Positions 15,622 to 63,262 of a DNA stretch of 64,000 bases are shown here, piece after piece. The stretch is from Crambe crambe. Its lineage: Eukaryota > Porifera > Demospongiae > Poecilosclerida > Crambeidae. Position 1 is the stretch's first letter. Every line of letters begins with the position of its first letter. The DNA lies in assembly GCA_963924555.1 (NCBI GenBank), contig OZ004594.1, positions 5,363,563 through 5,427,562 of the forward strand. The letters run 5' to 3'. The notes under the pieces were generated by a model that had not been told where the DNA came from, ran no database searches, and worked only from the letters and a program-made list of their open reading frames with translations. The translations under genes were made by a program, and so were the position numbers.

Positions 15622-16756
15622 TTATGCAGTGATGGATTTGGTTGTAGCTCTTTTTTCTATTGGAATCTCATATCCATTTTCATCCACTTTCCCCACAGTG
15701 GGGTTGTCCCCTCCCCTCTCCACATGGTCAATGACCTCATAGGCAGAGGATGCTTGCTGCAGAGGTGTGGGAACTGGCAACACATCTTGAGGTCCAAGGA
15801 AGCTGTACTGAACTGAGGGACCTTGTTTTGAGTCAGGAGAGTAAGTGGGATTGTCAAGCAGCATCTCCGTGGTGGTGCTGTATTGATGGAGGATATTATT
15901 TGGAGTGTGTGTTATGGAAGCTACGTAACTCTCACCCTTCATGAAGAGTGGGACTCTCCCTTCTCGATCTGTTATGGCATGACCACACCCATCCTGTGAC
16001 TACACCCACTAGCCCTAGAGCTAATATAATACTCAGTGCTCCTAAACCTCCTCCAAGTGCTGCAGCATTTCCAGCAGTTGCTTCTCCTTGATTGCCACTG
16101 AGCATTGCCTGACTGCAGTTCACTGGGTATGAGTGTGTGTATGGTATTGCTGTGTTACTGCTGGTGGTGGCACTTCCATTCACTATAACATGGTGATTTA
16201 TTATGCTATAGCTATTATTATTTTGCTGCTTACTGCATAGGAGTCCTACTTCTTCTTGACCATTCCTGCGACATCCATCAAGTGTATCAAAATCACAGTC
16301 TGTTAGTTTTCTTTCCTCTCCTCTGCATGTGATGTCATTGACTCCCTGAGGTAGGGGACTTCTGCCAAAACAGGAATCTGTACAGTACTTTGCCCCTTGA
16401 CATAATATGAAATATCAAAATGCATTCATTCATAAGAACAAGCTCATACCTTCATCAGAAAAGCCTAACTGTCTGCAAGCCACTCTGGCCTCACTTTCAC
16501 CCCATCCAGAAGCACACACCTCCTTCCACTCCCTGTCATCACATATCTGTACACGACCAGCACCATTCTGATCAAACTCCCACTTTAATCTGATGTCACC
16601 TGATTCACACTCAGAACTGGACTCTATAGAGTTTAGATTCAGTGAACTGCAATAACGTCATAACTTATCTATTTTAGTAAATACAATAAAGTATGCACTA
16701 ATAATGTACTTACTCGTACTTTCTAATAGCAGCCACAGCATAGCCCAGATTTTCAT
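15622..16756 (-). CDS. SRCR-domain type I receptor with tyrosine-motif tail (copy S1, intact)
   Basis: Five exons (minus strand): 16714-16756, 16450-16623, 16234-16395, 15936-16182, 15622-15877. Phases fit at every junction; the product is 293 aa. Exon 1 gives the signal start MKIWAMLWLLLES. Exons 2-3 encode one SRCR domain: CESGDIRLKW, GRVQICDDREWKEVC, ARVACRQLGFSDEG, then YCTDSCFG, DITCRGEERKLTDC and EVGLLC. Exon 4 is a Ser/Thr stalk and TM segment (LGALSIILALGLVGVVTGWV) with a basic stop-transfer (CHNRSRR). Exon 5 is the cytoplasmic tail with DNPTYSP (NPxY), SVQYSFL and SAYEVI (both fit the ITIM consensus [SIVL]xYxx[ILV]) and NGYEIP. SRCR receptors bind microbial or self ligands; the tail motifs suggest phosphotyrosine signalling or endocytosis, which is inference. 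A transporter fragment lies 750 bp away on the other strand. Confidence 0.85.
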
Positions 16757-17405
16757 GGGAGCATACAATTCTATGGCAAAGTACACAATACATCACTACC
16801 AACAAGTTAGCTGTGTGTGTGATAGATCAGTAAACTGACTATATTTTCTCTTGTCAATAGCTCAAGTATGAAACTGCAAGCAAACTATGAGTCATGCTTT
16901 CCATTGTCTACATGAAGAGAGCTATTCTATGAAACATTTTCCCCTACTACCTAGCAGCTATACAATATTATAATGAAATACCCCTAGTCTGTTCATTAAG
17001 GTATCGTGTCTTACCCATCAATGATGTGGATGCTCTATATGCACACTATAGCCAGTATAGCCACAGCACAACCAAAGAGCAGTCGTCAATTCTATTTCTG
17101 AATAGCTTATGTGGTTTATATGCATGACATTCTTTTGTGTAATTATTGAAAGATTATTTTGAAAGCTAATTATGTATATGTACCATACATACAGTGGACT
17201 ATTGTATTAGCCAGGTGTGGTTATTGTTTGGGTGCGGTTATGCAGTTGAATATATATTTTGTCTACTACTAATATTATATAACCAGCTCCTAAAAGAGTC
17301 TCTAACTATTACATGTCATGATGTATGATGTTTATGGCAAGCTATCCACCTGCAGCTGCTCTAGGTTTCTACTGATCAGCTGATAATTATGTAAATATGC
17401 ATTAA
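16757..17405. other. Upstream region of receptor S1
   Basis: AT-rich. Its first 120 bases resemble the sequence upstream of S3 (23106-23230), so S1 and S3 share a promoter-side block. No ORF of note. Confidence 0.5.
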
Positions 17406-17508
17406 TCAGAGAGTGCGCTAGCACTCTCTAAGTAGGGATGGCGGGTCAAAGGTCATAGGACTGTATAAACTAAAAACTCTTCTTTCTCTTCTACCCTTAC
17501 TCTATAGG
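17406..17508 (+). mobile_element. TCAGAGAG-family element copy 2, 3'-truncated
   Basis: Starts at A-TCAGAGAGTGCGCTAGCACTCTCT (perfect hairpin), then AAGTAGGGATGGCGGGTCAA as in the 39389 copy. It stops abruptly at the junction with transporter sequence at about 17509, so the element and the truncated transporter were joined by a deletion or recombination. Confidence 0.75.
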
Positions 17509-18216
17509 TTCATGCCTTTATATATCCTCTTCATTCATCCATGTATTCCAAGATGGATGCCACGAATCCTCTACCGTTTGACCATTGGTATTTTCCTGAT
17601 GTTTCTATTTGTTGCAGCTATGTTTATCATTCAAGTGGTGGCTAATTACAATGCCATCTATAAACAGGACAGAAATATCACCTGCATGTTTCTATCAGAC
17701 ATTTGTAATGAAAATGAGGTGCCATCAATGCTGAATTTTAATATACCGGTTCTTATCCTTCCCAACCTGCTGTGTGGCATTGCCTTCCCTCTGGTCTACG
17801 TCACAATACTAGAATTCGTATCTGCTCAAAGTCCACATTCCATGAAGGGACTCCTCCTTGGGATCTTCTATGCCTTCAGGGGGTTCTTCACACTAATAGG
17901 ATGTGTCCTTATTTTTCCATTTGCACAGGAAAAGTACTGGAAAGATACAGCACACGTGACAGATTGTGGATTCTACTATTACTTGCTGAGTACTGTCATG
18001 GGTTTGGTCGGTGTTGCTGCAATACCAGCTGCTACCAAGTGGTACCAATACAGAGTGAGAGAAGACCGACCTTATGGACCTTTTTATGTGGAGGAATATT
18101 ATTCTCGCTATTTGAGAGGTATGAATGCACAAGCTATCAGCCCTGTGTTGGAAGGAAGAGAGTGTGATCATCACCATGATGATAGAATGTCCACTTATGG
18201 AACAATCAATAACTAG
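17509..18216 (+). pseudogene. POT-like transporter, 5'-truncated copy (T0)
   Basis: Open for 234 codons, beginning within TM8 (MPLYILFIHPCIPRWMPRIL) and continuing through TM9-TM12 to the conserved tail GRECDHHHDD and TYGTINN. The first about 380 codons, including the POT signature and the DQ motif, are missing and replaced by element sequence. The retained part is uninterrupted and over 90 percent like the full copies. It could at most make a 5-TM fragment; no promoter block of the family precedes it, so I treat it as a pseudogene. Confidence 0.85.
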
Positions 18217-18604
18217 ACTAGGAATCGCTTTTAAAGCGTTGTTGGGCGAGCGAAGCAATGTTGATAATGTGAAGTTATGTCCTCATGCACATACATGCAG
18301 TTTACACAATTTTTTTGTAAATTATTGGGTGTGACATGCAGTGGGAGGGGCACATGCGTCCAGCCTAGTTCTCATCTCTTTCTCTGTCTCCTTTTTTCTC
18401 TTTTTAGCCTTTGGTGGCTCCATACTATAGTAGCTAATCATCAAATTCACAAGATTAGTTTTTGCTAATCAATATTAAAATGAGTCTTTGTTGTCGCTTA
18501 GCAATTAGTTCAGCGCATGCGCAATGATATTTTTTTGACGTACGTATATATATATCTCGAGCTCCCGTTGACATGACCAGAGAGTGGCTTGCTTCTCTCG
18601 CCAA
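18217..18604 (+). mobile_element. Insertion in the 3' region of T0 with GGCGAGCGAAGC-type ends
   Basis: In the other units the stop codon is followed directly by 'catcagaattcata'; here 388 extra bases intervene. The insert starts with 'gggcgagcgaagcaatg' near 18245 and ends with 'gcttctctcgccaatt', so it has short inverted ends (GGCGAGCGAAGC / GCTTCTCTCGCC). The same end motif borders the insertions at 25806, 49280, 54974 and 58480. Confidence 0.65.
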
Positions 18605-19238: not shown

Positions 19239-20509
19239 TCACTGATACTGCAGTCTTGAGTATTCTTGTGTTGTGGGAGTGGTTATAGCCCTCAGTTCAG
19301 TGGAGACCTCTTGTCTATCTCCATCCACTGCCAACACAGTGGGATCTTCCCCTCCCCTCTCTGTTGGTTGCTCAATGACCTCATAGATGGAAGACCCTTG
19401 CTGAGGTGGTGGCACATCTAGAGGTCCAAGGGAACTGTACTGGACTGAGGGACCTTGTCCTGTAGCATTAGCTGAATTAGGAGAGTAATTGGGATTGTCA
19501 AGCAGCATCTCTGTGGTAGTACTGAATGTAGAGAATATGCTATGTGACTATACAGTGTGATTATTTCATTTGAATACCTTTCATGGAGCTCTCTTCTCTT
19601 ATGGCATGACCACACCCAACCTATCACCACACCCACTAGCCCTAAGGCTAATACAATACTCAACATCCCTAAACCAGCACCTACTGCTGCAGTATTCCCG
19701 GCAGCTGCTTTTTGTTTTCCACCAACTGTTGGCTGACAGTTCACTGGGCATGTATTAGTGGATAATGCAGCTGTTGTTTGTGGTGGTGGTGTTGTAGTGC
19801 TTCTGCTCTCATTCACTGTAAGTTAATACATGATGTATAAGGATGTAGCAACAAGCTAATATGAGGTGGATCTAAAGGCACACATATGCACTCTTCAGGT
19901 GGACACCATTGAAAGAGAGTTATGTGATTTGAACCAAATGTGCTTATGATGTACACTAGATCCACCTCTATTTTTTTCATTACTACATATGACTCCTGCT
20001 TCTCCACCCCAATGTGCACACCCATATTCGTAAATGGCAATCAGTTGGCAGTCCACAAGTCTTTCTTCACTTCCTTCACAACGATAAGCAACTCCCCAGT
20101 ATATATCACTGTTGCCTAAGCAGGAATGCCAGCAATACTCGACCCCTTAATGCCATGAAGATAAATTAGTCAATACATTATTATGTGCATGTCTTACTAT
20201 ACCTGCATCAGAGAAACCCAACTGCCTGCACACCACTTTGGCACTGTTTTCATCCCAATGTGACTCCCCACACACTTCCCTCAACCATCTACCATCACTG
20301 TTACATATCTGTATGCGACCCACAGCAGGATTCCGCCCAGTTCTGCTTTGGAGTCTGATGTTACCTGGCTCACATTGGGAAATGGACTCTGCAAGATAGA
20401 TTATACAATGAATATAATCCCAGTGTAGGGCTTGTGCAATTAAAAATGACAATCCCAGCTTACTCGGTGGATGCTGTAACAGTAGCCACACCACAACCCA
20501 GATCTTCAT
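19239..20509 (-). CDS. SRCR-domain type I receptor (copy S2, intact)
   Basis: Exons: 20464-20509, 20203-20388, 19984-20145, 19578-19815, 19239-19521; all phases agree, 304 aa. Signal start MKIWVVVWLLLQHPP; SRCR halves CEPGNIRLQS, GRIQICNSDGRWLREVC, AKVVCRQLGFSDAG and YCWHSCLGNSDIYWGVAYRC, RLVDCQLIAIYEYGC, EAGVIC. Stalk with INNER Thr-rich run, TM LGMLSIVLALGLVGVVIGWV, then CHKRREL. Tail: DNPNYSP, SVQYSSL and SIYEVI (two ITIM-like sites about 25 residues apart), PPPQQ, and EYSRLQ at the end. Intron sizes (57-180 bases) and boundaries match S1 exactly, though sequence has diverged. This is subfamily b with S5 and S6; S1 and S3 form subfamily a. Confidence 0.87.
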
Positions 20510-20990: not shown

Positions 20991-20999
20991 TTTCCCTGT

Positions 21000-21245: not shown

Positions 21246-21250
21246 GTTTC

Positions 21251-22319
21251 ACTATCAGCTCTGTGTACACCAGCATACATACATAGATAGATTATAATAG
21301 ACTATGTACCTGCATAGGAAAAATTTTCAAGATTGAATGCTACACTGAATATAAACAGTGTACTTTGACCAAAAAAACTACAAGTTAGTACCAGATGCAG
21401 TAACCTCATTCCCAGGGCTTCCTCTCTTACTGGTATAGTCTCTCACAAAGAAAAAGGTAAAATACCGTGAGAAGAGATAGAAGAAGGCCCAGTAAAACTT
21501 ATCTCATGAGGGTAGAAAGGACTTAATTGGAGCGTGGGCAGTGGTGTGTTTGGTTTACAGAGAAATTCACTCGCGATGTACATTTTTGCAGTGTCAGCAA
21601 AATTGAGATCAAGGGTCAAATTTTGGCTCTAAGTGTTGTGCTCACCTTGGCTGCCAAGTCGCTTCAAATTGAGCTGCTATAGAGCCTTGGACCCCTTATT
21701 TGCAAGCAGGTGAGTTATCTTGGAGAGAACAATCAGCTGTGCTAGATGGGGGTCCATGAGAGGGCAATCCCTCAATGTTTGGTTGTTTGGGGCTTGGTCC
21801 AAGATATGTAATGATGAAATCTGAATGAGCCCAAGGGGTCCTTTGCCATCTGGGCAGTTGGTGTGTATGTAGAAACCTTGCATTTACCTATGAAAAAAGA
21901 ATTAAGTCTCAGACATAGCTTGCGAAACTTCTATTGATTAATACGAGAGTGTTTCATGTACAAACTTTAATTCTAGGATTAAGGAAATTTTCAGCTGGCT
22001 ATGCCTCTCAAATAACCTCTATAATAAACACTCCAACAAGATTATACACCTCATACAGTGTGTTAATTGGAATTTGTAATCAGAGGCCATGGTCTACATG
22101 GCTGCTGTGCTTCCCCCACCTATGGGTGTCTGTGACCACATATACTACAACAAAACAGACCACCGAAACATGTAGTCTCATTCCCAGGCCTTCCTCTCTC
22201 ACTGTTATAGTCAGAACAGCAGCCCTAATACATTAAGTTTTCCTATGGAGCTACATCCATCCATGCGAGTCTGGATAAGTCAGAAATTACAATGGATGTT
22301 CTTTGACTCATAACCTAGT
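21251..22319. other. No firm gene; repeat-like blocks
   Basis: Contains the block 'gagaggaagccctgggaatg' (21411-21440, minus strand), again near 22180 and near 36020 and 43410; it may be an exon or a dispersed repeat. Otherwise nothing recognised. Confidence 0.4.
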
Positions 22320-23110
22320 GTTATGGCATGACCACCACACAGATCCTGTGACTACACCCACAAGCCCTAGGGCTAATATAATACTCGGTGCTCCTAAACC
22401 TCCTCCAAGTGCTGCAGCATTTCCAGCAGCTGCTTGACTTGATTGCCACTGACCATAGCCTGACTGCAGTTCACTGGATATGAGTATGTATAATATGGTG
22501 TTGCTGTGCTGGTGGTGGCACTTTCATTATGGTGATTTATATGCTAGCTATTATTATTTTGCTGCTTACTACATAAGAGTCCTACTTCTCCTTGATTATT
22601 GCTGCGACATCCACCAAGTCTTTCAAATTCACAGTCTGTTAGTTTTCTTTCATTTCCTGTACATATGAAGTGATTGACTCCCTGAGGTAGGGGACTTCTG
22701 CCAAAACAGGAATCTGTACAGTACTTTGCCCCTTGATATAATAAATATCAACATGTAGCTAGCTATTCATTCATAAGAACAAGCTCATACCTTTATCAGA
22801 AAGCCTAACTGTCTGCAAGCCACTCTGGCCTCACTCTTATCCCATCCTGGACTACACACCTCCTTCCACTCCTGTCATCACATATCTGCACCATTCTGAT
22901 CAATTTCACACTCTAGTCTGATGTCACCTGGTTCACATTCAGGACTAGACTCTATAGAGTTTAAGTTCAGTGAACGCAAGTCCCTAATTATGGCTACTGT
23001 AGCATGGGAAAAAATACATGTGATTGGTGGCTATGTGTGGCTATGAGAATTAAAATATACACTTGAGGTCCTATCAACAGCCACAGCATAGCCCAGATCT
23101 TAATAGGAAC
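22320..23110 (-). pseudogene. SRCR receptor pseudogene (copy S3)
   Basis: Closest to S1. The remnants are: TM/stalk exon about 22330-22530, SRCR second half about 22590-22730, SRCR first half about 22800-22960, signal exon about 23070-23100. The initiator corresponds to ATT instead of ATG. The first SRCR half has lost about ten bases ('cttccactcctgtcatcaca...ctgcaccattctg'), and the tail exon is absent. It lies head to head with transporter T1, about 400 bases apart. Confidence 0.8.
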
Positions 23111-23513: not shown

Positions 23514-25376
23514 ATGAGCAGCAGTAATCAGAGACTTATCTCAGCAGCAACTGATCCTGTCACAACTCCTACTCCCACTTCTTTCCAACGAATCTTCTTC
23601 ATTTGCTCATGGTCCAAAAAATGCCACATTTTTTCCTGTTCCAAGGGCATTCTGATGATCTTGCTCTTGACTATCATTGTGGGATATGTATATGTTGCAG
23701 TGGTGTATGGTTCTCAAGCACTAATTCTGCAGCATCGCATCTCCATTGAAGATGAAAAGGTCCCTTTTCATACAGTCATTTCCATGGTAGCAGGAGCTGT
23801 TGGAATATTTGCACTTCTACAAATGCTGTTCTATCCTGTGGGAGGCTTGATAGCTGATATTTGCTGTGGCCGTTACAGAATCATCATTTCAAGTGTCTTC
23901 AGTATCTGGTGTGGGTTGTTACTTTGTTGCATTGCATGCATTATTAAAATAAGTATCAGAGAGGATAAAACATTCAGGATCATTTATGACATGCTTCTAT
24001 CTATAGTAGCACTTTTATCAATGATAGGATTTACTGGATTTCAATCTAATGCTGTGCAATTCGGTCTTGATCAGCTGTTATATGCTTCCAGCCAAGAACT
24101 TAGTTTGTTCCTCCATTGGTTCATATGGGCAGATCATTTCGGCCAGTTAATTTTACGCTTAGTGGGAGCGGCATATCTTTGTCATCAAGTATTTATTCGG
24201 GAAAAAATTGTGCTATCTTGTACTGTATTTATTTTTGGCATTATCATCACTGTTGTGATGATTCTGAGCTGCTGGAAGCGTCACTGGTTCCACAGTGAGC
24301 CACACACTCATAACCCTTATGGAACAGTGTATCGGGTGCTCAAGTTCGCAGCTAAGCATGACAAGCCCCTTCGAAGAAGTGCCTTGACTTACTGTGATGA
24401 TGAAAGATCTACAAGAATTGAGTTTGCTAAGCAGAAATATGGAGGTCCCTTCACCACAGAAATGGTGGAAGATGTAAAGACATTCTTTAGAATTCTCATC
24501 ATGCTTTTTGTCATGTCACCCATCTTCACTCTACAGGTAGCAGTCGATTACATGTTTCCTTTATATGGCATACATATGGGAAATTCCTCTACCTTTAATA
24601 CCACTGAATGCTCCGCTGAGTGGCTGCTTCTTCAGTCAGGAAACTTATCGTATTTGGTCACAGTTGTATTCATGCCTTTATATATCCTCCTCATTCATCC
24701 ATGTATTCCAAGATGGATGCCACGAATCCTCTACCGTTTGACCATTGGGATCTTCCTGATATTCCTATTTGTTGCAGCTATGTTTATCATTCAAGTGGTG
24801 GCTAATTACAATGCCATCTATAAACAGGACAGAAACATCACCTGCATGTTCCTATCTGACATTCGTAACAAAAATGAAGTGCCATCGATGCTGAATTTCA
24901 ATATACCGGTTCTTGTCCTTCCCAACCTGCTGGGTGGCATAGCCTTCCCTCTGGTCTACGTCACAATACTGGAATTCATATCCGCTCAAAGTCCACATTC
25001 CATGAAGGGACTCCTCCTGGGGGTCTTCTATGCCTTCAGGGGATTCTTCACACTTATAGGATGTGTCCTGATTTTTCCATTTGCACAGGAAAAGTACTGG
25101 AAAGATACAGCACACGTGACAGATTGTGGATTCTACTATTACTTGCTGAATACTGTCATGGGTTTGGTCGGTGTTGTTGCAATACCAGCTGCTACCAAGT
25201 GGTACCAATACAGAGTGAGAGAAGACCGACCTTATGGACCTTTTTATGTGGAGGAATATTATTCTCGCTATTTGGGAGGTATGAATGCACAAGCTATCAG
25301 TCCTGTGTTGGAAGGAAGAGAGTGTGATCATCACCATGATGATAGAATGTCCACTTATGGAACAATCAATAATTAG
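23514..25376 (+). CDS. POT-like 12-TM transporter (T1)
   Basis: Intronless, 620 codons from the first in-frame ATG (MSSSNQRLISAATDP); the MAM start used by other copies is AGGGCGATG here. TM order is as in T3. Shows GGLIADICCGRYRIIISSVF (PTR-family signature region), FTGFQSNAVQFGLDQL (equivalent of the POT DQ motif) and EFISAQSPHSMKGLLLGVFY (POT TM10-11 region). Copy-specific changes: YASSQEL instead of HASSQEL, FNTTEC after GNSST, LLIHPCIP, GGMNAQ. Between TM5 and TM6 it has the 'VFIREKIVLSCTVFIFG' cassette shared with T4 and T5. The last 60 residues follow the family (ECDHHHDD, TYGTINN). A divergent S3 pseudogene lies upstream. Confidence 0.88.
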   Translation: MSSSNQRLISAATDPVTTPTPTSFQRIFFICSWSKKCHIFSCSKGILMILLLTIIVGYVYVAVVYGSQALILQHRISIEDEKVPFHTVISMVAGAVGIFALLQMLFYPVGGLIADICCGRYRIIISSVFSIWCGLLLCCIACIIKISIREDKTFRIIYDMLLSIVALLSMIGFTGFQSNAVQFGLDQLLYASSQELSLFLHWFIWADHFGQLILRLVGAAYLCHQVFIREKIVLSCTVFIFGIIITVVMILSCWKRHWFHSEPHTHNPYGTVYRVLKFAAKHDKPLRRSALTYCDDERSTRIEFAKQKYGGPFTTEMVEDVKTFFRILIMLFVMSPIFTLQVAVDYMFPLYGIHMGNSSTFNTTECSAEWLLLQSGNLSYLVTVVFMPLYILLIHPCIPRWMPRILYRLTIGIFLIFLFVAAMFIIQVVANYNAIYKQDRNITCMFLSDIRNKNEVPSMLNFNIPVLVLPNLLGGIAFPLVYVTILEFISAQSPHSMKGLLLGVFYAFRGFFTLIGCVLIFPFAQEKYWKDTAHVTDCGFYYYLLNTVMGLVGVVAIPAATKWYQYRVREDRPYGPFYVEEYYSRYLGGMNAQAISPVLEGRECDHHHDDRMSTYGTINN

Positions 25377-26318: not shown

Positions 26319-26419
26319 GTCTTGCTGTCTAAAGTGCAGCATTAATTATAGGATACTGAAGGTCTGCCCAAATACGTTTTGTTGTCTGTAACATGACAAA
26401 CTGAAAGTTTTTCCAAGTA

Positions 26420-26690
26420 CTGCACGTCACCTCTTTTATTTTTTACTGCATATGACTCCTGCTTCTCCACCCCATAATTTGGACACCCATCTCGCAAACT
26501 GTAGATCAGTTGGCAATCCACAAGTCTCTCTTCAGTTCCTTTACAGGCATAAGCTACTCCTGAGTATGTACTGCTGCCTAAGCAACCCCTTGATGCATGC
26601 ATGAAGAAAAACTCGTTAATATCTGCATGTTTATAGTATCTTACTATACCTGCATCAGAAAAACCCAACTACCTACACATCACTTTGGCA
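26420..26690 (-). pseudogene. SRCR exon fragment (S4)
   Basis: The second SRCR half reads CLGSSTYSGVAYACKGTEER, LVDCQLIYSLRDGC, then a one-base deletion turns the expected GGGEAGVIC into another frame. Just upstream QLGFSDAG of the first half ends in degenerate sequence. No signal, TM or tail exon nearby. Confidence 0.75.
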
Positions 26691-27210
26691 TGCACTGTTT
26701 CCATCCCCCCAAAAAGTTACCACACACTTTCATTCGAAATCCACCTGTGCATTTATGTTGGTGGCTGACCACAATTCACTCACATGGTGGTGGTGATGAT
26801 GTTATCACAATATCTCCTATGTTGTGATGACATATTGAATTCGACACTTATTGCAATCATAAGAGTCTTAACTATCGTTGTTATAATTATATCCATTAAG
26901 TTTGTCAACCATAGTCTATCTATGTTTCATTTTCTGTACGTGTGATTTCGTGTAAAGACCTTGCCAAAGCACAATAGCTATTCAGTTCCTTCACAGAATA
27001 AGAAGTTATCACAGAATTCATCAGATGTTAGATAACTACAGGTAGTCTCAATCGATTCAGTTTTATATATTAACACTATTCAACTCGGTATACTGAATAT
27101 ACTTGTTTATTTTCATATTTGTACACTGTCCATTATAACTATCACAAACTAACCTTTTCAAGGGATAGTTTTATCAGCTATAGCAGTGCTAGGTAGCTAC
27201 ATATGTCCAT
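26691..27210. other. Upstream block of transporter units (type 'gttgtgatgacat')
   Basis: Contains 'gttgtgatgacatattgaat', 'gttataattatatccattaa' and 'ctgtccattataactatcac', found upstream of T6, T7 and T8 as well. It provides the empty-site sequence for element insertions at 51361 and 59501. Confidence 0.55.
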
Positions 27211-27222
27211 GTGAATGAAAAG

Positions 27223-29023
27223 ATGGCAATGAGCAGCAGTAGTCAGAAACTTATCTCAGAAGCAACTGATCCTGTCACAACTCCCACTTCTTTCCAACGA
27301 ATCTTCTCCATTTGCTTGTGCTCCAAAAAATGCCACATTTTTTCCCACTCGAAAAGCATTCTGATGATCTTTCTCTTGGCTATCATCGTGGGATATATTT
27401 ATGCTGCAGTGGTGTATGGTTCTAATTCTACAGTATCGTATCTCCTTTGAAGATGAAAAAATCCCTTTTCATACAGTCATTTCCATGATAGCAGGAGCTG
27501 GTGGAATATATGCGTTGCTATAAATGCTGTTCTATCCTGTGGGAGGCTTGATAGCTGACATTTGCTGTGGCTGTTACAGAATCATCATTTCAAGTGTCTT
27601 CAGTAGCTATCTGGTGTGGTTTGCTGCTTTATAATATTATTAAAATTAGTATCAGAGAGGATAAAACATTCAAGATAATTTATGACGTGCTTAAATTCAT
27701 ATCAGCACTTTTTTCTATGATAGGATTTACTGGGTTTCAAGTTGTATATAATAGCAAACTATTTGTTTGAATGAATTGATGACATAAATTTGCCACTCCC
27801 AGTATGCGTAGGATTAACTGGCCAAAATTATCTGCCCATATGAACCAATGGAGGAACAAACTAAGTTCTTGGCTGGAAGCATGTAACAGCTGATCAAGAC
27901 CAAATTGCACAGCATTTGCTATTATCTTTGTCATAATCATCACTGTTGTGATGATTCTGAGCTGTTGGAAGCATCAGTGGTTCTACAATGAGCCACACAC
28001 TCATAATCCTTATGGAACAGTGTATCGGGTGCTCAAGTTTGCAGCTAAGCATGATAAGCCCCTTCGAAGAAGTGCCTCGACTTACTGTGACGATGAAAGA
28101 CCTACAAGGATTGAGTTTGCTAAATAGAAATATGGAGGTCCCTTCACCACAGAAATGGTGGAAGATGTAATAAAATTCTCATCATGCTTTTTGTCATGTC
28201 CAGTTTTCACTCTACAGGTAGCAGTCGATTACATGTTTCCTTTATATGGCATACATATGGGAAATTCCCCTATCATTAATACCACTGAATGCTCTGCTGA
28301 GTGGCTGCTTCTTCAGTCAGGAAACTTATCGTATTTGGTCACAGTTGCATTCATGCCTTTATATATCCTCTTCATTCATCCATGTATTCCAAGATGGATG
28401 CCACGAATCCTCTACCGTTTGACCATTGGGATCTTCCTGATGTTTTATTGCAGCTATGTTTATCATTCAAGTGGTGGCTAATTACAATGCCATCTATAAA
28501 CAGGACTGCATGTTCCTATCAGATATTCGTAAAGAAAATGAAGTGTCATCGATGCTGAATTTTAATATACCGGTTCTTACCAACCTGCTGGATGGCATAG
28601 CCTTCCCTCTGGTCTACGTCACAATACTGGAATTCATATCTGCTCGAAGTCTATATTCCATGAAGGGACTCTTCCTGGGGGTCTTCTATGCCTTCAGGGG
28701 GTTCTTCACACTGATAGGATGTGTCCTTATTTTCCCGTTTACACAGGAAAAATACTGGAAAGATACAGCACACGTGACAGATTGTGGATTCTACTATTAC
28801 TTGCTGAGTACTGTCATGGGTTTGGTCGGTGTTGCTGCAATACCAGCTGCTACCAAGTGGTACCAATACAGAGTGAGAGAAGACCGACCTTATGGACCTT
28901 TTTATGTGGAGGAATATTATTCTCGCTATGAATGCACAAGCTATCAGTCCTGTGTTGGAAGGAAGAGAGTGTGATCATCACCATGATGATAGAAAGTCCA
29001 CTTATGGAACAATCAATAATTAA
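27223..29023 (+). pseudogene. POT-like transporter pseudogene with internal inversion (T2)
   Basis: Starts like the intact copies (MAMSSSSQKLISEATDPVTT) but has an early frame break near 27420 (deletion in the GSQALIL region), TAA for CAA near 27522 (context 'gctataaatgctg' for 'gctacaaatgctg') and TAG for CAG near 28125. A segment of about 180 bases (27741-27919, TM4-TM6 region) lies in reverse orientation. Small deletions follow around 28165, 28440 and 28930, the last shifting the C-terminal tail. The 3' end at 29021-29023 corresponds to the normal stop. Confidence 0.92.
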
Positions 29024-30807: not shown

Positions 30808-30877
30808 AAGATAGTTTATCAGCTATAGCAGTGCTAGGTAGCTACATATGTCCATGTGAATGAAAAGATGGCAATGA
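30808..30877 (+). promoter_or_regulatory. Conserved 5' block with two overlapping uORFs before T3
   Basis: 'ttatcagctatagcagtgct aggtagctacatatg' precedes all full transporter copies (23458, 27172, 37092, 46935, 52540, 56131; partial at 60608). Directly before the start it contains uORF1 ATG-TCC-ATG-TGA (30848-30859) and uORF2 ATG-AAA-AGA-TGG-CAA-TGA (30860-30877), which overlaps the main ATG at 30868. The upstream ATGs have poor context (C or T at -3), whereas the main start is AAAAGATGG, a strong Kozak match. This predicts leaky scanning. Confidence 0.6.
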
Positions 30878-49770: not shown

Positions 49771-49869
49771 TTAAGTCTTGCTGTCTAAAGTACAGCATTA
49801 ATTATAGGATACTGAAGGTCTACCCAAATAACAAACTGAAAGTTTTCCCAAGTACTCTTCTTTATTATT

Positions 49870-50110
49870 ATTTTTTCTGCATATGACTCCTGCTTCTCCA
49901 CCCCCATAACTTGGACACCCATATCACAAACTGTAGATCAGTCGGCAATCCACAAGTCTCTCTTCAGTTCCTTTACAGGCATGCTGCCTAAGCAGGAATA
50001 TGCCTGCAATGCTCAACCCCTTGATACATGCATGAAGAGAAACTAGCTAATATCTGTATATTTATAGTATCTTACTATACCTGCATCAGAGAAACCCAAC
50101 TGCCTACACA
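49870..50110 (-). pseudogene. SRCR exon fragment (S7)
   Basis: The second SRCR half carries an extra AT in 'gcaggcatattcctgc' (others 'gcaggcattcctgc'), which shifts the frame to a stop. Downstream GCPSYGGGEAGVIC is still readable in its own frame. The first half is reduced to QLGFSDAG and debris. Confidence 0.75.
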
Positions 50111-50232
50111 TCACTTTGGCATGTACTGTTTCCATCCCCCCCAAAAGGTTACCACACACTTCCTCTACCTGTGCATTTATATAGGTGGCTGACCACAATT
50201 CACTCACATGGTACCAGGTGGTGATGATGTTA

Positions 50233-52590: not shown

Positions 52591-54440
52591 ATGGCTATGA
52601 ACAGCAGTAATCAGAAACTTATCTCAGCAGCAACTGATCCTATCACAACTCCTACTCCCACTTCTTTCCAACGAATCTTCTCCATTTGCTCGTGGTCCAA
52701 AAAATGTGGCATTTTTTTCCCACTCGAAAGGCATTCTGATGATCTTGCTCTTGACTATTATTGTGGGATATATTTATGCTGCAGTGGTGTATGGTTATAA
52801 AACATTAATTCTGCAGCGTCACATCTCCATTGAAGATGAAAAAGTCCCTTTTCATACAGTCATTTCCAAGATAGCAGGAGCTGGAGGAATATTCGCGTTG
52901 CTACAAATGCTGTTCTATCCTGTGGGAGGCTTGATAGCTGATATTTGCTGTGGCCGTTACAGAATCATCATTTCAAGTATCTTCAGTATCTGGTGTGGTT
53001 GGTGTGGTTTGCTGCTTTATTGCATTATATATATTATTATCAGAGAGGATGAAACATTCAAGATCATTTATGACATACTTCTCTGTATAGCAGCACTTTT
53101 ATCAATGATAGGATTTACTGGGTTTCAATCTAATGCTGTGCAATTTGGTCTTGATCAGCTGTTACATGCTTCCAGCCAAGAACTTAGTTTGTTCCTCCAT
53201 TGGTTCATATGGGCAGATAATTTTGGCCAGTTAATCATACACATACTGGGAGTGGCACATTTTTATCATCAATTCGTTCAGTTTGCTATCGTATACAACA
53301 ATTATTTTTGCCATTATCATCACTGTTGTGATGATTCTGAGCTGTTGGAAGCATCACTGGTTTCACAGCGAGCCACACACTCATAATCCTTATGGAACAG
53401 TGTATCGAGTGCTCAGGTTCACAGCTAAGCATGACAAGCCCCTTCGACGAAGTGCCTTGACTTACTGTGACGATGAAAGACCTACAAGAATTGAGTTTGC
53501 TAAACAGAAATATGGAGGTCCCTTCACCACAGAAATGGTGGAAGATGTAAAGACATTCCTGAGGATTCTCATCATGCTTTTTGTCATGTCACCAGTTTTC
53601 ACTCTACAGGTAGCAGTTGCTTATATGTTTCCTATATATGGCATACATCTGGGAAATTCCCCTATCATTAATACCACTGAATGCTCTGCTGAGTGGCTGC
53701 TTCTTCAGTCAGGAAATTTATCGTATTTGGTCACAGTTGTATTCATGCCTTTATATATCCTCTTCATTCATCCATGTATTCCAAGATGGATGCCACGAAT
53801 CCTCTACCGTTTGACCATTGGGATCTTCCTGATGTTTCTATTTGTTGCAGCTATGTTTATCATTCAAGTGGTGGCTAATTACAACGCCATCTATAAACAG
53901 GACAGAAACATCACCTGCATGTTCCTATCAGACATTCGTAATGAAAATGAGTTGTTGAATTTTAATATACCGGTTCTTGTCCTTCCCAACCTGCTGGGTG
54001 GCATAGCCTCCCCTCTGGTGTATGTCACAATACTGGAATTCATATCCGCTCAAAGTCCACATTCCATGAAGGGACTCCTCCTTGGGGTCTTCTATGCCTT
54101 CAGGGGATTCTTCACCCTAATAGGATGTGTCCTTATTTTTCCGTTTACACAGGAAAAATACTGGAAAGATACAGCACACGTGACAGATTGTGGATTCTAC
54201 TATTACTTGCTGAGTACTGTCATGGGTTTGGTCGGTGTTGCTGCAATACCAGCTGCTACCAAGTGGTACCAATACAGAGTGAGAGAAGACCGACCTTATG
54301 GACCTTTTTATGTGGAGGAATATTATTCTCGCTATTTGAGAGGTATGAATGCACAAGTTATCAGTCCTGTGTTGGAAGGAAGAGAGTGTGATCATCACCA
54401 TGATGATAGAATGTCCACTTATGGGACAATCAATAATTAA
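52591..54440 (+). pseudogene. POT-like transporter with two frameshifts (T6)
   Basis: Starts normally (MAMNSSNQKLISAATDP), but an extra T in the run after 'tgtggcat' (52706-52720) shifts frame +1. Loss of eight bases near 53278 ('cgttcagtttgc' for 'cattcaaacaaatagtttgc') shifts it again. An in-frame 9-base duplication (tggtgtggt, about 52990) and a 9-base deletion in 'attattatcagag' are neutral. The C-terminal 385 codons are open and almost identical to T7, so inactivation is recent. A sequencing error could explain the T-run, but not the eight-base loss. Confidence 0.85.
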
Positions 54441-55490: not shown

Positions 55491-55700
55491 GTCTGTCCAC
55501 AAGTCTCTCTTCAGTTCCTTTACAGGCGTAAGCTACTCCTATACTGCTGCCTAAGCAGGAATATGCCTGCAGTGCTCAACCCCTTGATACATGCATGAAG
55601 AGAGATTCTGCGTGTTTTATAGTATCTTACTATACCTGCATCAGAGAAACCCAACTACCTTTGGCATGCACTGAAGTTAACACACACTTCCGTTGACCAT
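55491..55700 (-). pseudogene. SRCR exon fragment (S8)
   Basis: Shortest fragment: part of the second half with the same 'gcaggcatattcctgc' insertion as S7 and S9, then QLGFSDAG debris. The receptor-side sequence before 'gtctgtccac' is deleted. Confidence 0.7.
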
Positions 55701-56185
55701 CTACCTGTGCATGTATATTGGTGGCTGACCACAATTCACTCACATGGTGGTGGTGATGATGTTATCATAATATATCCTATCACTATACTATGTTGTGATG
55801 ACATGTTGAATTAGACACTTATCGAGTCTTAATTATCGTTGTTATAATTATATCCATTATAGTTTGTCAACCATAGTCTATCTATGTTTCATTTCCTGTA
55901 CTTGTGATTTCGTGTAAAGACCTTGCCAAAGCATAATAGCTATTCAGTCCCTTCACAAAATAAGAAGTTATCACAGAATTCATCAGATGTTAGATAACTA
56001 CAGGTAGTCTCAATCGATTCAGTTTTTGTATATTAACACTATTCAACTCGGTATACTGAATATACTTGTTTATTTTCATATTTGTACACTGTCCATTATA
56101 ACTATCACGAACTAACCTTTTCAAGTGATAGTTTTATCAGCTATAGCAGCGCTAGGTAGCTACATATGTCCATGTGAATGAAAAG

Positions 56186-58042
56186 ATGGCAATGAGCAGC
56201 AGTAATCAGAAACTTATCTCAGCAGCAACTGATCCTGTCACAACTCCTACTCCCACTTCTTTCCAACGAATCTTCTCCATTTGCTCGTGCTCCAAAAAAT
56301 GTGGCATTTTTTCCCACTCGAAAGGCATTCTGATGATCTTGCTCTTGGCTATCATTGTGGGATATACTTATGTTGCAGTGGTGTATGGTTATCAAACAAT
56401 AATTCTACAGAATCGTATCTCCATTGAAGATGAAAAAGTCCCTTTTCATACAGTCATTTCCATGATAGCAGGAGCTGGAGGTATATTCGCGTTGCTACAA
56501 ATGCTGTTCTATCCTGTGGGAGGCTTGATTGCTGACATTTGCTGTGGCCGTTACAGAATCATCATTTCAAGTGTCTTCAGTATCTGGTGTGGTTTGCTGC
56601 TTTATTGCATTATATATATTATTAAAATAAGTATCGAAGAGGATAAAACATTCAAGATCATTTATGACATACTTCTCTTTATAGCAGCACTTTTATCAAT
56701 GATAGGATTTACTGGATTTCAATCTAATGCTGTGCTATTTGGTCTTGATCAGCTGTTACATGCTTCTAGCCAAGAACTTAGTTCGTTCCTCCATTGGTTC
56801 ATATGGGCAGATAATTTTGGCCAGTTAATCATACACATACTGGGAGTGGCACATTTTTGTCATCAATTCATTCAAACAAATAGTTTGCTATCGTATACAA
56901 CAATTATTTTTGCCATTATCATCACTGTTGTGATGATTCTGAGCTGTTGGAAGCATCACTGGTTTCACAGCGAGCCACGCACTCATAATCCTTATGGAAC
57001 AGTGTATCGAGTGCTCAAGTTCACAGCTAAGCATGACAAGCCCCTTCGAAGAAGTGCCTTGACTTACTGTGACGATGAAAGACCTACAAGAATTGAGTTT
57101 GCTAAACAGAAATATGGAGGTCCCTTCACCACAGAAATGGTGGAAGATGTAAAGACATTCCTGAGGATTCTCATCATGCTTTTTGTCATGTCACCAGTTT
57201 TCACTCTACAGGTAGCAGTTGCTTATATGTTTCCTTTATATGGCATACATATGGGAAATTCCCCTATCATTAATACCACTGAATGCTCCGCTGAGTGGCT
57301 GCTTCTTCAGTCAGGAAATTTATCGTATTTGGTCACAGTTGTATTCATGCCTTTATATATCCTCTTCATTCATCCATGTATTCCAAGATGGATGCCACGA
57401 ATCCTCTACCGTTTGACCATTGGCATCTTCCTGATGTTTCTATTTGTTGCAGCTATGTTTATCATTCAAGTGGTGGCTAATTACAACGCCATCTATAAAC
57501 AGGACAGAAACATCACCTGCATGTTCCTATCAGACATTCGTAACGAAAATGAGTTGTTGAATTTTAATATACCGGTTCTTGTCCTTCCCAACCTGCTGGG
57601 TGGCATAGCCTTCCCTCTGGTGTACGTCACAATACTGGAATTCATATCTGCTCAAAGTCCACATTCCATGAAGGGACTCCTCCTTGGGGTCTTCTATGCC
57701 TTCAGGGGGTTCTTCACACTGATAGGATGTGTCCTTATTTTTCCGTTTGCACAGGAAAAGTACTGGAAAGATACAGCACACGTGACAGATTGTGGATTCT
57801 ACTATTACTTGCTGAGTACTGTCATGGGTTTGGTCGGTGTTGCTGCAATACCAGCTGCTACCAAGTGGTACCAATACAGAGTGAGAGAAGACCGACCTTA
57901 TGGACCTTTTTATGTGGAGGAATATTATTCTCGCTATTTGAGAGGTATGAATGCACAAGCTATCAGTCCTGTGTTGGAAGGAAGAGAGTGTGATCATCAC
58001 CATGATGATAGAATGTCCACTTATGGAACAATCAATAATTAA
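56186..58042 (+). CDS. POT-like 12-TM transporter (T7)
   Basis: Intronless, 618 aa, start MAMSSSNQKLISAATDP. Belongs with T6 and T8: SKKCGIFSHSKG before TM1, the TM5-6 cassette 'FIQTNSLLSYTTIIFAII', IIHILGVAHFCHQ in TM5, and a shortened outer loop RNENELLNFNIPV (three residues fewer than T1, T3, T4 and T5). Changes: GYQTIILQNR, KISIEEDKTFKII, AVLFGLDQ (Leu for Gln in the DQ region), SEPRTHNPYG. Signature GGLIADICCGRYR and tail intact. Confidence 0.9.
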   Translation: MAMSSSNQKLISAATDPVTTPTPTSFQRIFSICSCSKKCGIFSHSKGILMILLLAIIVGYTYVAVVYGYQTIILQNRISIEDEKVPFHTVISMIAGAGGIFALLQMLFYPVGGLIADICCGRYRIIISSVFSIWCGLLLYCIIYIIKISIEEDKTFKIIYDILLFIAALLSMIGFTGFQSNAVLFGLDQLLHASSQELSSFLHWFIWADNFGQLIIHILGVAHFCHQFIQTNSLLSYTTIIFAIIITVVMILSCWKHHWFHSEPRTHNPYGTVYRVLKFTAKHDKPLRRSALTYCDDERPTRIEFAKQKYGGPFTTEMVEDVKTFLRILIMLFVMSPVFTLQVAVAYMFPLYGIHMGNSPIINTTECSAEWLLLQSGNLSYLVTVVFMPLYILFIHPCIPRWMPRILYRLTIGIFLMFLFVAAMFIIQVVANYNAIYKQDRNITCMFLSDIRNENELLNFNIPVLVLPNLLGGIAFPLVYVTILEFISAQSPHSMKGLLLGVFYAFRGFFTLIGCVLIFPFAQEKYWKDTAHVTDCGFYYYLLSTVMGLVGVAAIPAATKWYQYRVREDRPYGPFYVEEYYSRYLRGMNAQAISPVLEGRECDHHHDDRMSTYGTINN

Positions 58043-58975: not shown

Positions 58976-59074
58976 TCTTGCTGTCTAAAGTGCAGCATTA
59001 ATTATAGGATACTGAAGGTCTACCCAACTAAAAGTTTTCCCAAGTACTGCATGTCACCTCTTTTTTTTTTCTGC

Positions 59075-59320
59075 ATAATTATGACTCCTGCTTCTCCACC
59101 CCCATAACTTGGACACCCATCTCACAAACTGTAGATCAGTTGGCAATCTACAAGTCTCTCTCTCAGTTCCTTTACAGGCATTATGTACTGCTGCCTAAGC
59201 AGGAATATGCCTGCAATGCTCAGCCCCTTGATACATTCATGAAGAGAAATTAGTGAATCTGCATGTTTATAGTATCTTACTATACCTGCATCAAAGAAAC
59301 CTAACTTCCATCCCCCCCCC
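59075..59320 (-). pseudogene. SRCR exon fragment (S9)
   Basis: Second half with the shared AT insertion and an intact-looking end (YGGGEAGVI); the first half begins with LGFFDAG and is cut by a run of C and A (59311-59333). Confidence 0.75.
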
Positions 59321-59500
59321 CCCCCAAAAAAAAAGTTACCACACACTTCCTCTACCTGTGCATTTATATAGGTGGCTGACCACAATTCACTCACATGGTA
59401 CAAGGTGGTGATGATGGTATCATATGTTGTGATGACATGTTGAATTAGACACTTATTGCAATCATAAGGGTCTTAATTATCATTGTTATAATTATATCCA

Positions 59501-60345: not shown

Positions 60346-60651
60346 TTAAGTTTGTCAACCATAGTTTCATTTCCTGTACATGTGATTTCGCGTAAAGACC
60401 TTGCCAAAGCACAATAGCTATTCAGTCCCTTCACAGAATAAGAAGTTATCACAGAATTCATCAGATGTTAGATAACAAACAAGTAGTCTCAATCGATTCA
60501 GTTTTATATATTAACACTATTCAACTCGGTATACTGAATATATTTGTTTATTTTCACATTTGTACACTGTCCATTATAACTTTCACAAGCTAACCTTTTC
60601 AAGGGATAGTTGCAGTGCTGGGTAGCTACATATGTCCATGTGAATGAAAAG

Positions 60652-62508
60652 ATGGCAATGAGCAGCAGTAATCAGAGACTTAACTCAGCAGCAACTGATC
60701 CTGTCACAACTCGTACTCCCACTTCTTTCCAACGAATCTTCTCCATTTGCTCGTGGTCCAAAAAATGTGGCATTTTTTCCCACTCGAAAGGCATTCTGAT
60801 GATTTTGCTCTTGACTATCATTGTGGGATATATTTATGCTGCAGTGGTGTATGGTTATCAAACACTAATTCTGCGGCGTCGCATCTCCATTGAAGATGAA
60901 AAAGTCCCTTTTCATACAGTCATTTGCAAGATAGCAGGAGCTGGAGGAATATTCGCGTTGCTACAAATGCTGTTCTATCCTGTAGGAGGCTTGATAGCTG
61001 ACATTTGCTGTGGCCGTTACAGAATCATCATTTCAAGTGTCTTCAGTATCTGGTGTGGTTTGCTGCTTTATATCATTATATATATTATTAAAATAAGTAT
61101 CAGAGAGGATGAAACATTCGAAATTATTTATGACATACTTCTCTGTATAGCAGCACTTTTATCAATGATAGGATTTACTGGATTTCAATCTAATGCTGTG
61201 CAATTTGGTCTTGATCAGCTGTTACATGCTTCCAGCCAAGAACTTAGTTTGTTCCTCCATTGGTTCATATGGGCAGATAATTTTGGCCAGTTAATCATAC
61301 ACATACTGGGAGTGGCACATTTTTGTCATCAATTCATTCAAACAAATAGTTTGCTATCATATACGACAATTATTTTTGCCATTATCATCACTGTTGTGAT
61401 AATTCTGAGCTGTTGGAAGCATCACTGGTTTCACAGTGAGCCACACACTCATAATCCTTATGGAATAGTGTATCGGGTGCTCAAGTTCGCAGCTAAGCAT
61501 GACAAGCCCCTTCGACGAAGTGCCTTGACTTACTGTGACGATGAAAGACCTACAAGAATTGAGTTTGCTAAACAGAAATATGGAGGTCCCTTCACCACAG
61601 AAATGGTGGAAGATGTAAAGACATTCCTGAGGATTCTCATCATGCTTTTTGTCATGTCACCAGTTTTCACTCTACAGGTAGCAGTTGCTTATATGTTTCC
61701 TATATATGGCATACATATGGGAAATTCCCCTATCATTAATACCACTGAATGCTCTGCTGAGTGGCTGCTTCTTCAGTCAGGAAATTTATCGTATTTGGTC
61801 ACAGTTGTATTCATGCCTTTATATATCCTCTTCATTCATCCATGTATTCCAAGATGGATGCCACGAATCCTCTACCGTTTGACCATTGGTATTTTCCTGA
61901 TGTTCCTATTAGTTGCAGCTATGTTTATCATTCAAGTGGTGGCTAATTACAACGCCATCTATAAACAGGACAGAAACATCACCTGCATGTTCCTATCAGA
62001 CATTCGTAATGAAAATGAGTTGTTGAATTTTAATATACCGGTTCTTGTCCTTCCCAACCTGCTGGGTGGCATAGCCTTCCCTCTGGTGTACGTCACAATA
62101 CTTGAATTCATATCTGCTCAAAGTCCACATTCCATGAAGGGACTCCTCCTGGGGGTCTTTTATGCCTTCAGGGGATTCTTCACACTGATAGGATGTGTCC
62201 TTATTTTTCCATTTGCACAGGAAAAATACTGGAAAGATACAGCACACGTGACAGATTGTGGGTTCTACTATTACTTGCTGAGTACTGTCATGGGTTTGGT
62301 CGGTGTTGCTGCAATACCAGCTGCTACCAAGTGGTACCAATACAGAGTGAGAGAAGACCGACCTTATGGACCTTTTTATGTGGAGGAATATTATTCTCGC
62401 TATTTGAGAGGTATGAATGCACAAGCTATCAGTCCTGTATTGGAAGGAAGAGAATGTAATCATCACCATGATGATAGAAAGTCCACTTATGGAACAATCA
62501 ATAATTAA
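60652..62508 (+). CDS. POT-like 12-TM transporter (T8)
   Basis: Intronless, 618 aa from MAMSSSNQRLNSAATDP; the frame is open 14 codons further upstream without an ATG. T6/T7 subgroup (SKKCGIFSHSKG, FIQTNSLLSYTTIIFAII, RNENELLNFNIPV). Changes: TRTPTSF, LRRRISIEDEK (extra basic residues after TM1), VICKIAGAGGI in TM2, YIIIYIIK in TM3, FLLVAAMF in TM9, tail ECNHHHDDRKSTYG. The preceding conserved block is shortened (the 'ttatcagctatagc' part is deleted). Element copy 8 ends about 300 bases upstream. Confidence 0.9.
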   Translation: MAMSSSNQRLNSAATDPVTTRTPTSFQRIFSICSWSKKCGIFSHSKGILMILLLTIIVGYIYAAVVYGYQTLILRRRISIEDEKVPFHTVICKIAGAGGIFALLQMLFYPVGGLIADICCGRYRIIISSVFSIWCGLLLYIIIYIIKISIREDETFEIIYDILLCIAALLSMIGFTGFQSNAVQFGLDQLLHASSQELSLFLHWFIWADNFGQLIIHILGVAHFCHQFIQTNSLLSYTTIIFAIIITVVIILSCWKHHWFHSEPHTHNPYGIVYRVLKFAAKHDKPLRRSALTYCDDERPTRIEFAKQKYGGPFTTEMVEDVKTFLRILIMLFVMSPVFTLQVAVAYMFPIYGIHMGNSPIINTTECSAEWLLLQSGNLSYLVTVVFMPLYILFIHPCIPRWMPRILYRLTIGIFLMFLLVAAMFIIQVVANYNAIYKQDRNITCMFLSDIRNENELLNFNIPVLVLPNLLGGIAFPLVYVTILEFISAQSPHSMKGLLLGVFYAFRGFFTLIGCVLIFPFAQEKYWKDTAHVTDCGFYYYLLSTVMGLVGVAAIPAATKWYQYRVREDRPYGPFYVEEYYSRYLRGMNAQAISPVLEGRECNHHHDDRKSTYGTINN

Positions 62509-62511
62509 CAT

Positions 62512-63060
62512 CAGAATTCATATACTTGCTAGAGTTCTGTCCATGTTTATTTTCTTAGTACAAACTGTGTAGAATTGGGACTAGGAATGTATGGTCAACT
62601 TCCTGAATGAAGAATTATTGTCACTTAGGAATAACGAGTATCAAAAGTTGTATGAAAATTGCACTGCACACATTTGAGAAGAGTGCTTGCTATGACACAT
62701 TTTGGGTGTTGCTATTACACGAAATAATTTGGGTTTGATGTAGCAATTACAATTCTGACTCCCTATCTACCTCATAGCTGGTAGCTGTATTACTCCATGT
62801 ATTTACTATGGATAATTGGAAGTCACATTATGATATCCAAGTTAGTTCCTACTGATCAGTGATAGGGCTTGTTACAAATATTATAATAATCATGAGTGCA
62901 AAATTTCTTCAAACTTCAAAGTTCATGTATAAGGATGTCCCTACCTCTGGCTGAACTGTATATTCTGCATATTACACTAGCTGTCATCCCTTCATAGGGA
63001 GAGCCATAATGCATTGATTGTATCAGTACAGTATTAGTTTAATGCTTGCATTTTGATAGT
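62512..63060. other. T8 3' flank
   Basis: Conserved flank of the transporter units up to the S10 fragment; no gene. Confidence 0.5.
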
Positions 63061-63066
63061 ATCTTA

Positions 63067-63262
63067 CTATACCTGCATCAGAAAAACCCAACTGCCTACA
63101 TACCGCTTTGGCACTGTTTTCATCCCAATGTAGGCCACACACCTCTGTTGACCATATACCATCATAATTACATATCTGTATGCGACCCACAGCAGGATTC
63201 CTCCCAGTTCTGCTTTGGAGTCTGATGTCCCCTGGCCCACATTGGGATGAGGACTCTGCAAG
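63067..63262 (-). pseudogene. SRCR first-half exon (S10), cut by an insertion
   Basis: Aligns to exon 2 of S2 and S5: 'CRQLGFSDAG' at the donor side (donor GTATAGTAAG kept), GRIQIC and QSRTGRNPAVG. But 'ccacacacctctgttgac' lacks several bases of the CGESHWDEN region, shifting the frame. The intron before it is interrupted at 63271 by an element, and the signal exon is not seen. Confidence 0.75.

Follow-up and report, generated by a model that had tools for sequence, protein, structure and literature searches.

A tandem array of SLC15A4-like carriers and single-SRCR receptors in the sponge Crambe crambe: probable duplication of neighbours rather than a functional pair

Introduction

Why should two unrelated gene families alternate along one tandem array of a sponge genome, and does their neighbourhood reflect joint work or a common history of duplication? 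The stretch considered here (the window) comprises 64,000 nucleotides of Crambe crambe DNA (C17:5363563-5427562, on contig OZ004594.1 of assembly GCA_963924555.1) and carries transporter genes related to the SLC15/POT carriers, interleaved with receptor genes that contain a single SRCR domain. A sequence-only reading had described nine transporters on the plus strand alternating over 48 kb with ten SRCR copies or fragments on the minus strand, with intact and broken members in both families. It proposed that the pair had been duplicated as a unit, and saw in the locus either a recognition module in which receptor and carrier are coupled or the outcome of symbiont or allorecognition selection. 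Here the array is followed into 200 kb of neighbouring sequence, and both families through the 143-Mb assembly of 119 contigs. The explanation that we favour, and consider likely, is that two unrelated neighbouring families were tandemly duplicated together through their adjacency and not through joint function, the carrier being likely non-proton-driven.

Results

Layout and unit duplication of the array

Within the window the array spans 15616-63271, and all of the copies previously described, intact and broken, were located, with nine places of the transporter, all on the plus strand, and ten of the single-SRCR receptor, all on the minus strand, in the order R1 T1 R2 R3 T2 R4 T3 T4 R5 T5 R6 T6 R7 T7 R8 T8 R9 T9 R10. 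The alternation holds save at two points, R2/R3 and T3/T4, but the array does not end after 48 kb and continues to the right. Complete open frames are found at six of the nine window transporters, and two of the ten receptors (R2 and R5, both hand models) have all exons open, the majority of window receptors being broken. The copies are as follows.

Transporter copies
T1, 17422..18216, plus strand: C-terminal fragment; open frame of 264 amino acids, 93% to T4 residues 387-618
T2, 23514..25376, plus strand: complete, single-exon, 620 amino acids
T3, 27223..29020, plus strand: broken by indels and an internal inverted 180-bp piece at ~27741-27920
T4, 30868..32724, plus strand: complete, single-exon, 618 amino acids; phmmer match to SLC15A4 at 4.3e-21; predicted fold nearest SLC15A4
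T5, 37133..38992, plus strand: complete, single-exon, 619 amino acids
T6, 46987..48843, plus strand: complete, single-exon, 618 amino acids
T7, 52591..54440, plus strand: frameshifted; two overlapping open frames
T8, 56186..58042, plus strand: complete, single-exon, 618 amino acids; Pfam PTR2 3.3e-12
T9, 60652..62508, plus strand: complete, single-exon, 618 amino acids; Pfam PTR2 5.6e-12

Receptor copies
R1, 15616..16756, minus strand: diverged, plausible SRCR receptor (40% in SRCR); tail shortened, NPTY kept
R2, 19242..20509, minus strand: all exons open (hand model); signal peptide 20509-20462, SRCR exon 1 from 20389, SRCR exon 2 20146-19979, transmembrane exon ~19822-19577, tail exon 19511-19242
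R3, 22311..23104, minus strand: broken receptor of the R1 type
R4, 26428..26707, minus strand: SRCR remnant
R5, 33918..35129, minus strand: all exons open; Pfam SRCR 1.8e-15 (hand-spliced model); signal peptide 35129-35082, SRCR exon 1 35000-34815, SRCR exon 2 34759-34592, transmembrane exon 34425-34234, tail exon 34175-33918
R6, 41324..42575, minus strand: frameshift in SRCR exon 2; NPxY changed
R7, 49860..50138, minus strand: SRCR remnant
R8, 55495..55705, minus strand: SRCR remnant
R9, 59055..59309, minus strand: SRCR remnant
R10, 63059..63271, minus strand: SRCR exon 1 remnant without transmembrane and tail exons; 5' part past the window end

Alignment of the units with one another, genes and flanks together, is collinear at 68-94% DNA identity, far above chance, which bears out the proposal that transporter and receptor were duplicated as a unit with homologous flanks. 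Each unit consists of a transporter followed by a receptor, tail to tail, and the spacing between units is not uniform. Pairwise DNA differences among the 11 full carrier copies of the array amount to 3-9%, and the copies form two groups that are interleaved. The partners have fared differently within these units: four of the six complete window transporters (T2, T6, T8 and T9) are adjoined by an SRCR remnant only, the receptor beside the fifth is frameshifted, and a single intact neighbouring pair, T4-R5, is left. A shared bidirectional promoter was considered and found unsupported, the gap from receptor start to next transporter start being 2.0 kb for R5-T5, 4.4 kb for R6-T6 and 2.8 kb for R10-T10.

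Single-family stretches beyond the window

The full array extends over C17:5379-5501 kb and has 16 transporter places, of which 11 were verified as full open frames; seven of the 16, along with further receptors, are found past the right end of the window, and the 40 kb to the left contain no match to either gene. On the window scale, five transporter places without a receptor occupy 80-96 kb, and no receptor remnants were detected at 77-97 kb when two receptor genes served as queries in a DNA search (E 1e-3). Beyond them, at 97-137 kb, follows a receptor-only stretch of about ten receptors and no transporter, whose members are more diverged than the receptors among the transporters (47-63% to R5, in SRCR exon 1 or whole-domain matches). 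As transporter-only and receptor-only stretches occur in one array, neither family needs the other even there. Just past the receptor-only stretch lies a single-exon open frame of 686 amino acids on the minus strand (L020:3907-5964), with an N-terminus that looks RING-type by eye.

Linkage of the two families elsewhere in the genome

If receptor and carrier worked together, they might be expected to lie together at other loci. The genome-wide lists gave 37 clusters of transporters and 42 of SRCR genes, and only 1 of the 37 overlaps an SRCR cluster, namely the present array, where random placement expects 0.39 (P 0.34; listed clusters). The lists are thinned within clusters, and the lengths used for 11 of 18 contigs are estimates. 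A search with the transmembrane and tail exons of the receptor, for which all 106 candidates were scored, placed one of seven clusters of the present receptor type over transporters. Reading of 20 kb in each of two other clusters gave the same picture: the C14 transporter cluster (L029 and L030) contains four carriers and no SRCR match, and in the C16 receptor cluster there are five receptors but nothing that matches a carrier. By overlap of the listed clusters, receptor-transporter linkage above chance was not found at other loci.

Two neighbourhoods may be noted. C14:4548-4914 kb is rich in carriers, with ~28 distinct places among the matches listed, and at C17:3279-3350 kb, one of the seven receptor-type clusters, 27 relatives of the receptor transmembrane exon are listed (matches to that exon only).

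Divergence and selection in the two families

Among the six complete window transporters, the ratio of nonsynonymous to synonymous rates (dN/dS) is 0.26-0.38, at a dS of 0.07-0.19. Receptor dS over 20 exon pairs is 0-0.15, with 16 of the 20 at 0.05-0.15 (the exons are short); similar dS in carriers and receptors is as expected if both were duplicated together. Across the 11 array carriers the ratio of nonsynonymous to synonymous differences (pN/pS) is 0.48 in the N-terminal half and 0.19 in the C-terminal half, and the highest 40-codon windows reach ~0.7, none exceeding 0.71. Pooled receptor values are 0.70 for SRCR exon 1 (five copies), 0.63 for SRCR exon 2 (two copies), 0.42 for the transmembrane exon (four copies) and 0.69 for the tail (three copies). 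Constraint on the transporters is clear, and that on the receptors weaker (0.42-0.70 by exon, from few changes). Nothing specific to symbiont or allorecognition selection was found, and no 40-codon carrier window has a pN/pS above 1.

One region departs from the rest. Codons 561-600 of the window carriers have a pS of 0.012, compared with ~0.09-0.2 in most other 40-codon windows (11 copies), and the sister gene at C17:4.563 Mb does carry synonymous differences in the matching region. Because that sister gene differs there, local gene conversion is as likely an explanation as a conserved element imposing hidden constraint.

An SLC15A4-like carrier without key proton-coupling residues

The transporter had been called SLC15/POT-related, and both sequence and fold now place it closest to SLC15A4. 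All nine phmmer matches among solved structures (PDB set) are SLC15A3 or SLC15A4, the best at 4.3e-21. The Pfam PTR2 model (cut-off 27 bits) matches T8 (46.5), T9 (45.7), L001 (75), L002 (62.7) and L006 (56), and has no match for T4 and L030, two of the seven carriers scanned, through either divergence or loss in the HMMER filters; an NCBIfam scan of T4 and T2 gave no match. In a Foldseek search with the predicted model of T4 (mean predicted local distance difference test score 69.6, predicted template modelling score 0.74, 16 sequences), the top 14 entries are SLC15A4, SLC15A3 or PepT2, with SLC15A4 first, and for 12 of the 13 SLC15A4 rows listed the TM-score is 0.57-0.65 when normalised to the query and 0.71-0.80 when normalised to the target, with sequence identities of 15-19%. 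Carriers and SLC15A4 have in common the segments FGxDQ...WFxW, GGPFTxExVEDVK and LEFxxxxxPxSM. By these sequence and fold comparisons the carrier is a divergent, single-exon, SLC15A4-like relative with the POT fold and not a canonical proton-coupled POT, and it is nearer SLC15A3/A4 than SLC15A1/A2, by phmmer and Foldseek rank rather than by a tree.

The residues of proton coupling were then compared. None of 19 carrier open frames has the ExxER motif of transmembrane helix 1 (TM1; E..E[RK] in the first 170 residues), L014 among them beginning inside TM1. At the TM4 position aligned to the lysine of the SLC15A4 'VKAN' segment, which we take to be the salt-bridge partner of the TM10 glutamate, 16 of 16 carriers have Q or T; the TM10 glutamate itself (in LEF) is kept in 15 of the 16. 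Because the TM1 ExxER and the TM4 lysine are absent, proton coupling has probably been lost in the carrier. Near the N-terminus, the acidic dileucine [DE]xxxL[LI], in SLC15A4 presumably a lysosomal signal, is found in 5 of the 9 paralogs located elsewhere but in none of the 11 array copies. The C-terminal tail motif E[ED]YYS (cytoplasmic; T4 residues 581-585) is present in all 11 array copies and in 8 of the 9 other paralogs.

The family extends well beyond the array. A search for carriers listed 73 matches, of which 52 lie outside the array and 50 of these have an open frame of at least 538 amino acids, a few of the 50 with a stop inside the match. The list is biased to long uninterrupted matches, and in its listed part the family is essentially single-exon. 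Shorter PTR2 matches also occur, for example at C9:5565-5573 kb, and may be intron-bearing or broken members. A literature search, which took in the accessible parts of PMC10280926 and PMC7385117, found no paper on an expansion of SLC15 or POT genes in sponges.

A single-SRCR receptor with a tyrosine-motif tail

In the hand models of R2 and R5 the receptor has five exons: one for the signal peptide, two between which a single SRCR domain is divided, one for the transmembrane segment and one for the tail. The spliced R5 model matches PF00530 at 57.5 bits (cut-off 26.1; 1.8e-15), and NPxY and patterns resembling the immunoreceptor tyrosine-based inhibitory motif (ITIM) lie in the tail exon, in agreement with the initial description of these receptors. 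By pattern match NPxY is present in 16 of 19 tails: 3 of 4 in the window (lost in R6), 1 of 1 in R12, 8 of 9 in the receptor-only stretch and 4 of 5 in the C16 cluster. Other recurrent tail motifs are of the xY[ED]xI type, with a YSxLQH(Q) end in some. Frames with motifs were sought downstream of transmembrane exons, so the tail count may be biased upward; the flanks look homologous too. A receptor predicted to combine signal peptide, SRCR domain, transmembrane segment and a tail with NPxY and ITIM-like motifs fits an endocytic or phagocytic receptor.

Other features of the window

Scans of the window for Rfam families (gathering threshold) and for tRNAs gave no matches. The T5-R6 gap contains a near-perfect palindromic (foldback) element at 40296-40738, with 212-bp arms that are 99% complementary; copies occur on many contigs, with at least 101 matches listed (best 40 of 1027 candidates scored). 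There are also a 153-bp tandem duplication at 51437-51742 (two copies, 92% matches) and a 34-bp tandem repeat at 9552-10028 (14 copies, 96% matches). A minus-strand open frame of 333 amino acids at 1208-2209 has 102 genome-wide matches, itself included, and no Pfam match; it looks like part of a mobile element.

Discussion

The array shows collinear units, comparable divergence of carriers and receptors between them, and stretches of either family by itself; elsewhere in the genome the listed families do not overlap. In the history that we favour, the receptors would already have formed a tandem array before the carrier arrived, the receptor-only part being the more diverged, and a carrier gene would have come to adjoin that array. 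Later unit duplications, probably by unequal exchange, would have copied the receptors close by as well, the majority of them decaying afterwards. The carrier would act as a POT-fold facilitator, probably not proton-driven, that lets small peptides or related solutes pass down their gradient, and the array copies, without the acidic dileucine, may occupy another membrane. In the receptor, a single SRCR domain would bind the ligand, and the tail with its NPxY and ITIM-like motifs would mediate internalisation or signalling, as in engulfment receptors. Carrier and receptor need not act together.

Several points weigh against this explanation. The genome-wide lists are incomplete, with 105 of 208 and 71 of 319 carrier candidates and 150 of 2833 and 142 of 1437 SRCR candidates scored. 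Of the 37 transporter clusters, 3 lie within 20 kb of an SRCR cluster where 0.76 would be expected; P is 0.036 at this cut-off, one of five and without correction, and 0.11, 0.13 and 0.15 at 10, 50 and 100 kb. An SRCR exon on the opposite strand is only 6.4 kb away from the sister carrier cluster (C17:4563-4569 kb, 64% identical). There, L033 (C17:4554000-4563999) contains at 1455-7782, on the strand opposite the carriers, SRCR domains, a transmembrane-like segment and a tyrosine kinase domain; frames that by eye resemble the 3' end of a kinase reach 7782, which leaves ~0.5 kb up to a carrier fragment at 8290. The present carrier branch has four clusters (C17:5.4, C17:4.56, C10:7.9 and C11:0.14 Mb), and two of them therefore adjoin SRCR genes. 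Because the receptor types differ and both loci are on C17, we read the adjacency at C17:4.56 Mb as chance or local history, though the case for a module has no better lead left. The receptor pN/pS values come from two to five copies with few changes, and the loss of proton coupling rests on motifs; according to the accessible part of PMC6288477, some POT relatives without ExxER still use protons.

The alternative that survives best concerns what the carrier does. The carriers might be transceptors or scaffolds, as SLC15A4 is for TASL, instead of transporters, the coupling residues being lost and the cytoplasmic EEYYS tail being the working part. The absence of ExxER from 19 of 19 frames and of the TM4 lysine from 16 of 16, the tail motif kept in 19 of the 20 carriers examined for it (all 11 of the array), and a nearest fold of SLC15A4, including entries with TASL, all suit such a role. 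The TM10 glutamate kept in 15 of 16 and the strong constraint on the C-terminal half are, in contrast, as in a working carrier, and we regard a scaffold as rather unlikely.

A broader proposal, speculative and in our judgement rather improbable, is that in a sponge lineage an SLC15A4-type endolysosomal peptide carrier became a large single-exon tandem family without proton-coupling residues, whose members serve bacteria-eating cells as a panel of sensors or passive exporters of peptides. One branch would have come to lie twice beside SRCR genes, those of the NPxY receptor here and of the SRCR receptor tyrosine kinase at C17:4.56 Mb, and would cooperate with them. Passive peptide exporters or sensors, if real, would bear on how peptides from digested prey or symbionts are handled in a bacteria-eating animal, and on the origin of the immune role of SLC15A4 in vertebrates.

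Selection for variety, in a diversifying immune, symbiont or allorecognition locus, could drive both copy number and sequence. Copy-number expansion with birth and death, the faster carrier N-terminal half (pN/pS 0.48 against 0.19) and the 0.70 of SRCR exon 1 are what such a locus might display, yet none of the 40-codon windows of the 11 carriers exceeds 0.71 and most window receptors are broken, which makes this reading unlikely.

In a functional module, bacteria or debris would be caught by the SRCR receptor, and the peptides set free from them exported or sensed by the carrier next to it, the pair being kept and amplified as a unit. This view was dropped as the leading reading on the linkage count, the single-family stretches and the decay of the receptors. 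It draws on the unit duplication, the intact T4-R5 pair, the SRCR receptor kinase genes beside the sister carrier cluster, the similarity of the carrier to SLC15A4 and the endocytic type of the receptor tail. Set against these are listed clusters that overlap elsewhere at no more than chance, remnants beside 4 of the 6 intact window transporters with a frameshifted receptor beside the fifth, stretches of either family by itself in one array, and weakly constrained receptors; the coupling of receptor and carrier first proposed for this locus is not favoured, and we give it little credence. Tandem arrays are in general hard to assemble, yet an assembly artefact or uncollapsed haplotypes can scarcely account for 11 full copies that are 3-9% apart in two interleaved groups with varying unit spacing.

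On the favoured explanation of co-duplicated neighbours, the pairing probably reflects tandem duplication of an ordinary kind, and interest shifts to the carrier family. What is unusual is its scale and form, with at least 50 further long single-frame SLC15A4-like genes and ExxER absent from all 19 frames examined. The receptor arrays, with their conserved tyrosine-motif tail, constitute a candidate set of engulfment receptors.

Comparison with known systems

SLC15A4 (PHT1) and SLC15A3 resemble the carriers in being their best sequence and fold matches and in the common segments. Unlike SLC15A4, the carriers are without the TM1 ExxER and the TM4 lysine, have a single exon, number dozens of copies and share a conserved EEYYS tail; the acidic dileucine is a further likeness in 5 of 9 outside paralogs, whereas the array copies are without it. 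The plant NPF2a/NAXT group (AtNPF2.1-2.7, one cluster) offers a second parallel, as clustered POT-fold proteins in which, as far as the accessible text of PMC6288477 goes, all chargeable ExxER residues are absent. The authors there describe NPFs without ExxER as passive or efflux transporters, with exceptions (PMC6288477, in part). The NPF2a/NAXT proteins differ in being plant proteins and nitrate-related, and we infer that ExxER was lost independently in the two groups.

For the receptor, the engulfment receptors CED-1 and MEGF10 likewise have NPxY (CED-1 also YxxL) in the tail of a single-pass receptor, through which, in the portion of PMC1762421 available, both bind CED-6/GULP. Their ectodomain is of the EGF type and that of the present receptors SRCR, so the likeness is drawn as an analogy, with no claim of homology or membership. 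Massive tandem clustering of SRCR genes has a precedent in the sponge Amphimedon queenslandica, where the superfamily, in the available portion of PMC10855680, counts 296 genes, 158 of them in tandem arrays. Unlike that set, the Crambe crambe receptors combine one intron-split SRCR domain with a transmembrane segment and a tyrosine-motif tail, and are interleaved with a carrier.

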